Shown: positions 3,052-8,234 of the stretch, one piece after another
Numbering within the stretch: the stretch's first letter is position 1
Layout: every line of letters starts with the position of its first letter
Assembly (NCBI GenBank): GCA_031288615.1
Contig: JAITRC010000002.1
Coordinates: 1-13,500, forward strand
Length of the DNA: 13,500 nucleotides
DNA from: Tannerellaceae bacterium
Lineage (GTDB): Bacteria; Bacteroidota; Bacteroidia; Bacteroidales; Tannerellaceae
Direction: 5' to 3'
Made by a program: the position numbers and the translations under genes
The notes under the pieces: model-generated
Told to the model about the DNA's origin: nothing
Databases searched by the model: none
What the model saw: the letters and a program-made list of their open reading frames with translations, nothing else

Positions 3052-3133
3052 TTGCACAAATTCACAGATTTGTAAAGGAGTGTGAATAAAGTCGTTAAGG
3101 GTTGTTCACAGAGTGGGATCTGGAGGAGGGGAG
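3052..3133. repeat. 82-bp direct repeat, copy B
   Basis: Second copy of the block at 2863-2944. Both inverted-repeat pairs (acaaat/atttgt and attcaca/tgtgaat) are kept, as is the downstream ttcaca, while loops and the spaces between them have changed. This suggests that the short motifs, not the whole block, are under constraint, as in protein-binding iterons or a structured RNA. Confidence 0.85.
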
Positions 3134-3258: not shown

Positions 3259-3321
3259 ATTTATTGCAGAGAAGTAGATTGGAAGTAGTAACGGAGGGGG
3301 GATGGGGGAAGTACCTGAGTA

Positions 3322-3337
3322 CATTGAGAACTACGGT
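3322..3337 (+). repeat. Left inverted repeat of the candidate invertible promoter
   Basis: cattgagaactacggt is the exact reverse complement of 3445-3460. The match stops at both ends of the 16 bases, giving a defined recombination-site-like unit rather than a long palindrome. A diverged direct copy of the sequence at its right end (actacggtgacgaaaag, 3330-3346) also occurs at 3462-3477. Confidence 0.9.
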
Positions 3338-3444
3338 GACGAAAAGCGCAGAAAACGTGATGGGGTGATGGAAAAAAGTGGCTTGGATTTTATTACGGAT
3401 TACCGGAAACTCTTAAGTTTGCACGGTTTTAGTAAACAATGTAT
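3338..3444 (+). other. Candidate invertible DNA segment carrying the SusC/SusD promoter
   Basis: These 107 bases are bounded by perfect 16-bp inverted repeats and contain one recognisable promoter box, pointing right toward the SusC-like gene. No TAnnTTTG box was found on the other strand of the segment. Bacteroides species are known to switch capsule and SusC/SusD-type genes by inverting short promoter segments between repeats of this size with a site-specific recombinase. Position, size and content all match that pattern; inversion itself cannot be seen in one sequence. Confidence 0.75.
3388..3421 (+). promoter_or_regulatory. Bacteroidetes-type promoter of the SusC/SusD operon
   Basis: TAAGTTTG at 3414-3421 matches the Bacteroidetes -7 consensus TAnnTTTG exactly. 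The -33 element is poor: TTTT at 3388-3391, 22 bases upstream, is the best candidate. Transcription would begin near 3428, giving a leader of about 80 bases before ATG 3506. The box lies inside the candidate invertible segment, so this is the ON orientation. Confidence 0.65.
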
Positions 3445-3460
3445 ACCGTAGTTCTCAATG
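3445..3460 (-). repeat. Right inverted repeat of the candidate invertible promoter
   Basis: accgtagttctcaatg is the exact reverse complement of 3322-3337. It lies in the presumed 5' leader of the SusC-like mRNA and ends 45 bases before the chosen ATG at 3506, so inversion would not disturb the coding sequence. Confidence 0.9.
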
Positions 3461-3505
3461 GACTATGGTGATAAAAGGTGTAACCGTCCATTTAATAAGT
3501 TCAAT

Positions 3506-8197: not shown

Positions 8198-8234
8198 TTG
8201 CGCCGGAGTAAGAAACAACCTTACTCCGGCGCAA
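8198..8234. terminator. Perfect 15-bp hairpin between convergent operons
   Basis: ttgcgccggagtaag (8198-8212) and its exact reverse complement (8220-8234) enclose a 7-base loop. It starts nine bases after the SusD-like stop codon, and its right arm contains the last codons and stop of the Fic gene, read on the other strand. A bidirectional terminator is the natural reading. No T-run follows on either strand, so termination may be inefficient or need other factors. Confidence 0.65.

Follow-up and report, generated by a model that had tools for sequence, protein, structure and literature searches.

Does the inverted repeat in front of a SusC/SusD operon of a Tannerellaceae bacterium enclose a promoter that the cell can turn around? 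We asked this of the window (the whole 13,500-nucleotide stretch of DNA that was analysed here), for which a preliminary description had proposed a phase-variable invertible promoter controlling the operon. Comparison with related genomes makes it, in our judgement, highly probable that the element is an invertible susC/susD promoter in the ON orientation, and that it is one of a set of inversion sites common to other Tannerellaceae.

The inverted repeat and its surroundings

The starting point was a perfect 16-bp inverted repeat (3322-3337 and 3445-3460) that had been described as enclosing 107 bp. This repeat is real: it is the longest perfect inverted repeat in the window at spacings of 40-500 bp, and none of 300 dinucleotide-preserving shuffles reached 16 bp at the same spacings (the largest reached 14). 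The 16 bp are not the whole recombination site, which spans 25 bp. When the repeat is extended outward, 22 of 25 bases are paired, and each arm is a 25-bp site in which a 5-bp core is flanked by two mirrored half-sites of the AGTTC/GAACT type. Tyrosine-recombinase sites are built in this way. Read on one strand, the arms are ACCTGAGTAC-ATTGA-GAACTACGGT and ACCATAGTCC-ATTGA-GAACTACGGT; their half-sites agree with the family consensus at 17/20 and 19/20 positions, respectively, and the cores ATTGA and TCAAT are reverse-complementary. The exchanged segment would run from core to core (Table 1).

Table 1 Predicted recombination sites, promoter box, and genes of the element (window coordinates)
Feature	Position	Strand	Remarks
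Left recombination site, ACCTGAGTAC-ATTGA-GAACTACGGT	3313..3337	+	Outer half 7/10 and inner half 10/10 to the family consensus
Right recombination site, + strand ACCGTAGTTC-TCAAT-GGACTATGGT	3445..3469	-	Core reverse-complementary to that of the left site; site lies within the predicted 5' leader of susC
Predicted inverting segment, core to core	3323..3459	.	Holds the 107-bp interior 3338-3444; inferred from comparison
Promoter -7 box TAAGTTTG, exact TAnnTTTG (Bacteroidota)	3414..3421	+	Faces susC
susC-like TonB-linked outer membrane transporter gene, 1055 aa	3506..6673	+	TIGR04056, 731 bits; predicted target
susD-like lipoprotein gene, 498 aa	6693..8189	+	SusD family match; predicted to be co-transcribed

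The exact -7 box pointing at the SusC-like gene, also reported previously, was found within the interior. By itself this box is weak evidence for a promoter, because the window contains 10 exact TAnnTTTG boxes over both strands of its 13.5 kb, so that simple arithmetic gives a chance of about 8% of meeting one within 107 bp. No good -33 box accompanies it, and the two boxes scored together gave P = 0.395. Across the 50 elements described below, the two-box score was at P ≤ 0.1 in six; since this score fails to single out the window, we do not claim that every element contains a promoter.

Downstream of the element, the families of the SusC/SusD gene pair were confirmed (Table 1). The susC gene likely starts at ATG 3506 with a signal peptide (MKKRVGFIWVLALW...), which places the right repeat after the predicted transcription start but ahead of the gene and agrees with its earlier assignment to a presumed leader. 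Beyond susD lie Fic-domain, glycosyltransferase, and PafA-like phosphatase genes. A search of the eight main open reading frames of the window against recombinase families returned no match at E 0.001.

Several other features of the window were observed. Two 82-nt direct repeats (2863-2944 and 3052-3133), 80% identical and 189 bp apart, sit between the upstream gene and the putative invertible element without an Rfam match, and the Rfam scan of the window at gathering score gave no match at all. An open frame of 911 aa on the minus strand (2-2734) runs off the window; its repeats are often about 93 bp apart, and it has only a sub-threshold match to DUF6944. A perfect inverted repeat at 8198-8234, with 15-bp arms and a 7-nt gap, separates the end of susD from the convergent Fic gene and is possibly a bidirectional terminator.

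The homologous locus and the wider family of sites

We compared the window with the closest relatives found, which were Tannerellaceae metagenome-assembled genomes that we take, from their isolate names, to come from termite guts. Their SusC proteins are 82% (locus L002) and 68% (locus L001) identical to that of the window, and the closest SusD match has 80% identity. L002 carries a perfect 24-bp inverted repeat before the orthologous susC, its arms separated by 143 bp; the half-sites are of the same kind as in the window, but the core differs (CAACAGG versus CATTGAG over 7 bp). L001 has no such site pair before SusC. When the interiors of the window and L002 were aligned with one of them inverted, the score was 48, a value that 1 of 500 plain shuffles and 26 of 3000 dinucleotide shuffles attained, whereas in the same orientation the score was 25, which was reached by 347 of 500 and 2429 of 3000, respectively. 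The inverted alignment includes the -7 box, and the two -7 boxes coincide in this one pair of loci. Because the interiors align only when one is turned, the promoter of the window would face SusC (ON) and that of L002 would face away from it (OFF). The reversed homologous interior thus supports the earlier suggestion that the window was sequenced in the ON state.

The site is far from unique in the genome of L002 (G001). A search of G001 for AGTTNNNNNNNAACTAYGGT with at most one mismatch gave 96 matches over both strands, where one site may score on both, versus 9 for the pattern read backwards; the same search gave 4 matches versus 2 in the genome of L001. We surveyed 20 regions of G001, choosing sites by their half-sites alone and pairing neighbors 80-600 bp apart, and added the window and regions of eight other family genomes around part of their known sites. 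The survey of these 10 sources returned 131 sites in 366 kb versus 9 in the reversed sequence. The sites formed 50 pairs in 8 of the 10 sources, with at least 29 in G001 and none in the stretches of G045 and G046; 31 sites were left unpaired, some of them at contig ends. Although the pairs had been chosen by half-sites alone, the cores were reverse-complementary in 50 of 50, and no other relation was seen.

The 29 G001 elements have 19 distinct cores, and a core was common to both elements in 14 of 406 between-element comparisons; core addresses are largely, but not entirely, private to their loci. One weak half-site is present in each of several paired elements of G001 and G041. Some elements have more than two sites: at three loci of G003 (L189, L191, and L192), the site occurs twice at a spacing of 35-36 bp, both copies having the same orientation and the same core.

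Among the SusC loci examined, 4 of 30 have a core-matched pair upstream (the search that yielded these loci matched 62 of 123 genomes), and none of 600 shuffles produced a pair. The other 26 homologues are without an element, three of them having <600 bp of upstream sequence. The SusC targets in G001 include the L002/L074 locus and, by N-terminal sequence only, L073 and L088.

How far does the site extend? The preliminary description had suggested searching other genomes for the same 16-bp repeat, and this search came back empty: the exact pattern TTGAGAACTACN{98,128}GTAGTTCTCAA had no match in the genome contigs, so it is the half-sites and not the core of the window that are conserved. Of 393 Bacteroidales genomes, 13 contain the 19-bp site (49 copies in G001 and one in each of 12 others). 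The reversed 19-bp control also matches many Bacteroidales genomes (seven times in G393), and at this strictness no spread beyond the family is therefore shown. Among 17 genomes of other SusC loci searched for the site, one had matches (two sites); the viral contigs searched had none. The relaxed pattern TAGTTCN5GAACTA was rejected: it occurs in 33 of 123 family genomes, but its reversed control gives up to 4 matches per genome. In G014, which is without an orthologue of the candidate recombinase treated below, the relaxed pattern matches seven times, in tandem groups 23-92 bp apart with no inverted core match. A search for the site string in the literature, with most subscription journals outside its reach, found no paper. 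The motif may already be in print; papers on Bacteroides fragilis reportedly list a repeat class of spaced AGTTC/GAACT form.

In G001 the site is also found inside coding regions. Three tandem acyltransferase-like genes (L091:2256-5628) have an inversion pair inside each coding region; PF01757 was identified in the one that was scanned. Copy 1 aligned to copies 2 and 3 with scores of 131 and 119 when inverted versus 54 and 56 in the same orientation, whereas copies 2 and 3 aligned to each other with 121 in the same orientation and 55 when inverted. The segment of copy 1 is thus opposite to that of copies 2 and 3, and both orientations are open in frame. At a SusC gene (L073:5213-8480), a segment that faces away carries the promoter box, the start codon, and the signal peptide. 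Reversing this segment in silico joins them to the gene in one stop-to-stop frame of 1051 codons, versus a frame of 996 codons without a signal peptide in the assembled orientation.

Other G001 elements lie between genes. At L077, L086, and L089, six genes of similar N-terminal sequence stand beside five elements with an interior of 126-127 bp; the one gene scanned is an FkbM methyltransferase, and only one of the six genes has the promoter box directed at it in the assembly. We also recorded runs of T in the direction of transcription, with gene directions assigned from maps of open reading frames. At least 6 T in the 8 bases right after the gene-distal site were found in 15 of 25 intergenic elements (L072-L091) versus 0 of 25 once the elements were reversed in silico. 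The site stem with its T-run may act as an invertible intrinsic terminator in these 15 elements. Pfam matches mark some of the genes behind these elements as glycan-related (GT2, GT1, and LicD). The window element is outside this class, with 0 T of 8 after the upstream site.

Candidate recombinase and alternative explanations

The anatomy of the site leads us to expect a tyrosine recombinase. The search of G001 for Phage_integrase genes turned up three, one of which is divided between two frames. The product of L069 is XerD-like (329 aa), with SAM-like and catalytic domains and no arm-binding match. Its motifs TGMR, HSSR, GH, and IYSK, presumably the catalytic ones, are in place, and XerA is its best match among solved structures (E = 1.8e-10). 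We searched 123 family genomes with a cut-off of our own choosing (E 1e-70) and found L069 orthologues in 39; stop codons fell inside the aligned stretch in 10 of the 39 best matches, perhaps beyond the end of the gene. Sites with at most two mismatches were present in 20 of the 123 genomes (reversed-pattern control: 2 of 123). The orthologue was present in 18 of the 20 site-bearing genomes versus 21 of the 103 others (Fisher test: P = 4e-9, kinship ignored). With kinship again ignored, the figures were 12 of 14 versus 27 of 109 when at least two sites were required (P = 1.5e-5), and 7 of 8 versus 32 of 115 when at least three were (P = 0.0013). The exceptions to this co-occurrence are G054, which has seven sites without an orthologue, and G042, which has only a fragment; a further 21 genomes have the orthologue and no site at up to two mismatches. 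The second G001 integrase, L071, was found at E 1e-60 in 14 genomes, 2 of them site-bearing.

The SusC loci with an upstream pair are in orthologue genomes in 4 of 4 cases, versus 4 of 26 for those without (Fisher test: P = 0.0026). Around 38 of the 39 orthologue loci there were 5 core-matched and 2 unmatched pairs, versus 0 and 2 in reversed sequence. A SusC match lay in the stretch of 25 of the 38 loci, but we give little weight to the nearness of the recombinase to SusC genes as support. Among the 393 Bacteroidales genomes, the recombinase was found at E 1e-50 in seven, of which G001, G033, and G304 are also among the 13 site-bearing ones. Parabacteroides distasonis (L271) has an enzyme 54% identical, placed between SusC/SusD operons, and a core-matched pair at a distance of about 5 kb; the site-specific integrase next to these operons is WP_005855634.1. 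In Bacteroides sp. CACC 737 (L272), an enzyme 48% identical lies between SusC genes and is enclosed by a core-matched pair (2 mismatches) whose sites are 2.7 kb from each other. B. finegoldii (L273), with an enzyme 50% identical, has neither SusC genes nor a pair nearby. In the relative, the candidate recombinase is not beside the element, which fits the earlier proposal of an enzyme acting in trans.

An inverted repeat in a leader need not recombine at all, and the right site is predicted to fold by itself (-12.6 kcal/mol). A fixed repeat that binds a regulator or forms a hairpin in the leader RNA would, however, need no asymmetric core that changes from locus to locus and is common to distant copies, as was seen in 50 of 50 pairs, nor would it be found with its interiors in opposite orientations, and we give this explanation hardly any credence. 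It is very unlikely, but somewhat easier to imagine, that the element is a relic, which once inverted and became locked ON when the recombinase was lost or the left outer half-site decayed. That half-site is indeed degenerate (7/10), but the 16-bp repeat with the whole core is still perfect, and a weak half is equally present in several paired elements of G001 and G041.

Inversion could also be real and be the work of another enzyme, either a serine invertase of the Mpi/Hin type or a tyrosine recombinase other than the L069 orthologue. The link with L069 is a correlation with exceptions (G054 and G042), family genomes carry many tyrosine recombinases, and no site with at most one mismatch was found within 1.5 kb on each side of 30 of the orthologue loci (L112-L141). 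Two half-sites around a variable 5-bp core nevertheless fit a tyrosine recombinase, the Mpi repeat ARACGTTCGTN, as given in the accessible part of PMC8375218, differs from the site in the window, and G001, searched for Phage_integrase, has three such genes. On balance, we regard another enzyme as unlikely.

Proposed switch and comparison with known systems

We therefore return to the invertible promoter. We propose that a tyrosine recombinase encoded elsewhere would bind the mirrored AGTTC/GAACT half-sites of both 25-bp sites, and that strand exchange within the common core ATTGA would reverse the segment between them. In the sequenced orientation the -7 box would drive susC-susD (ON), and in the reversed orientation the promoter would face away (OFF). 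The core would serve as an address, in that both copies at one locus must match, and as cores differ between most loci, recombination should stay local. Strand exchange, promoter activity, and the identity of the enzyme in the organism of the window are inferred. The phase-variable promoter of the preliminary description is supported by the site pair of L002 with its opposite interior and by the pairs in G001, the matched cores, and the co-occurring tyrosine recombinase.

We lean, by a little, toward a broader reading as well: a genome-wide switchboard in this (probably termite-gut) Tannerellaceae group, with one master tyrosine recombinase, a common half-site, and a 5-bp core address. It would have three uses, namely the flipping of promoters (SusC and FkbM-type), the making and unmaking of terminators, and the flipping of protein-coding ends (the start of SusC and the C-terminal part of the acyltransferase). 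With this element, an uncultured lineage, probably from termite guts, joins the bacteria in which surface transporters appear to be switched by inversion. It also suggests a rule that can be tested: if sites have a half-site in common and a core specific to the locus, a single enzyme could operate dozens of switches that are largely independent, and the chromosome would be spared from scrambling.

The predicted terminators of the 15 intergenic G001 elements resemble the cwpV switch of Clostridioides difficile (RecV), in which, according to the accessible text of PMC2784873, inversion was proposed to bring a stem and a U-tract into place for an intrinsic terminator in the OFF state; the window element, with no T-run after its upstream site, differs from that switch. 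The Mpi inversions of capsule promoters in B. fragilis are likewise the work of a single enzyme on many invertible promoters of surface genes, but Mpi is a serine recombinase whose repeat, in the portion of PMC8375218 available to us, is not matched by the site in the window. A similar setting is that of inverton group 131 of the hCom2 gut community. As far as the available sections of PMC11892184 describe it, this is the largest inverton group (68 of 72 from Bacteroidota), is enriched before TonB receptor and RagB/SusD genes, carries the Bacteroidota promoter motif, and has no significant link to any invertase group. The window element is likened to it by its SusC/SusD-type setting and promoter motif. 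An L069-type enzyme and its site would be a candidate pair for this SusC/SusD-associated group that, in those sections, lacks a linked invertase.

Tyrosine recombinases that act on more than one locus are known from B. fragilis. In the system described in the accessible part of PMC4747536, one such enzyme inverts a local and a distant promoter of the TAnnTTTG type, at exopolysaccharide and outer-membrane or lipoprotein gene clusters; these are two target regions, versus the at least 29 site pairs of G001. The tyrosine recombinase Tsr0667 is credited with three SusC/SusD clusters and nine other regions (Nakayama-Imaohji 2009, as cited in the parts of PMC4747536 and PMC11852207 available to us). 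Going by those accounts, it resembles the proposed enzyme in inverting DNA at SusC/SusD genes and at other loci, and relatives of our candidate also adjoin SusC/SusD genes. Compared by description, Tsr0667 serves a shufflon of SusC/SusD clusters, whereas the window has a simple two-site promoter switch. By analogy, the window element would work like the SusC/SusD inversions of B. fragilis and is of a known kind.
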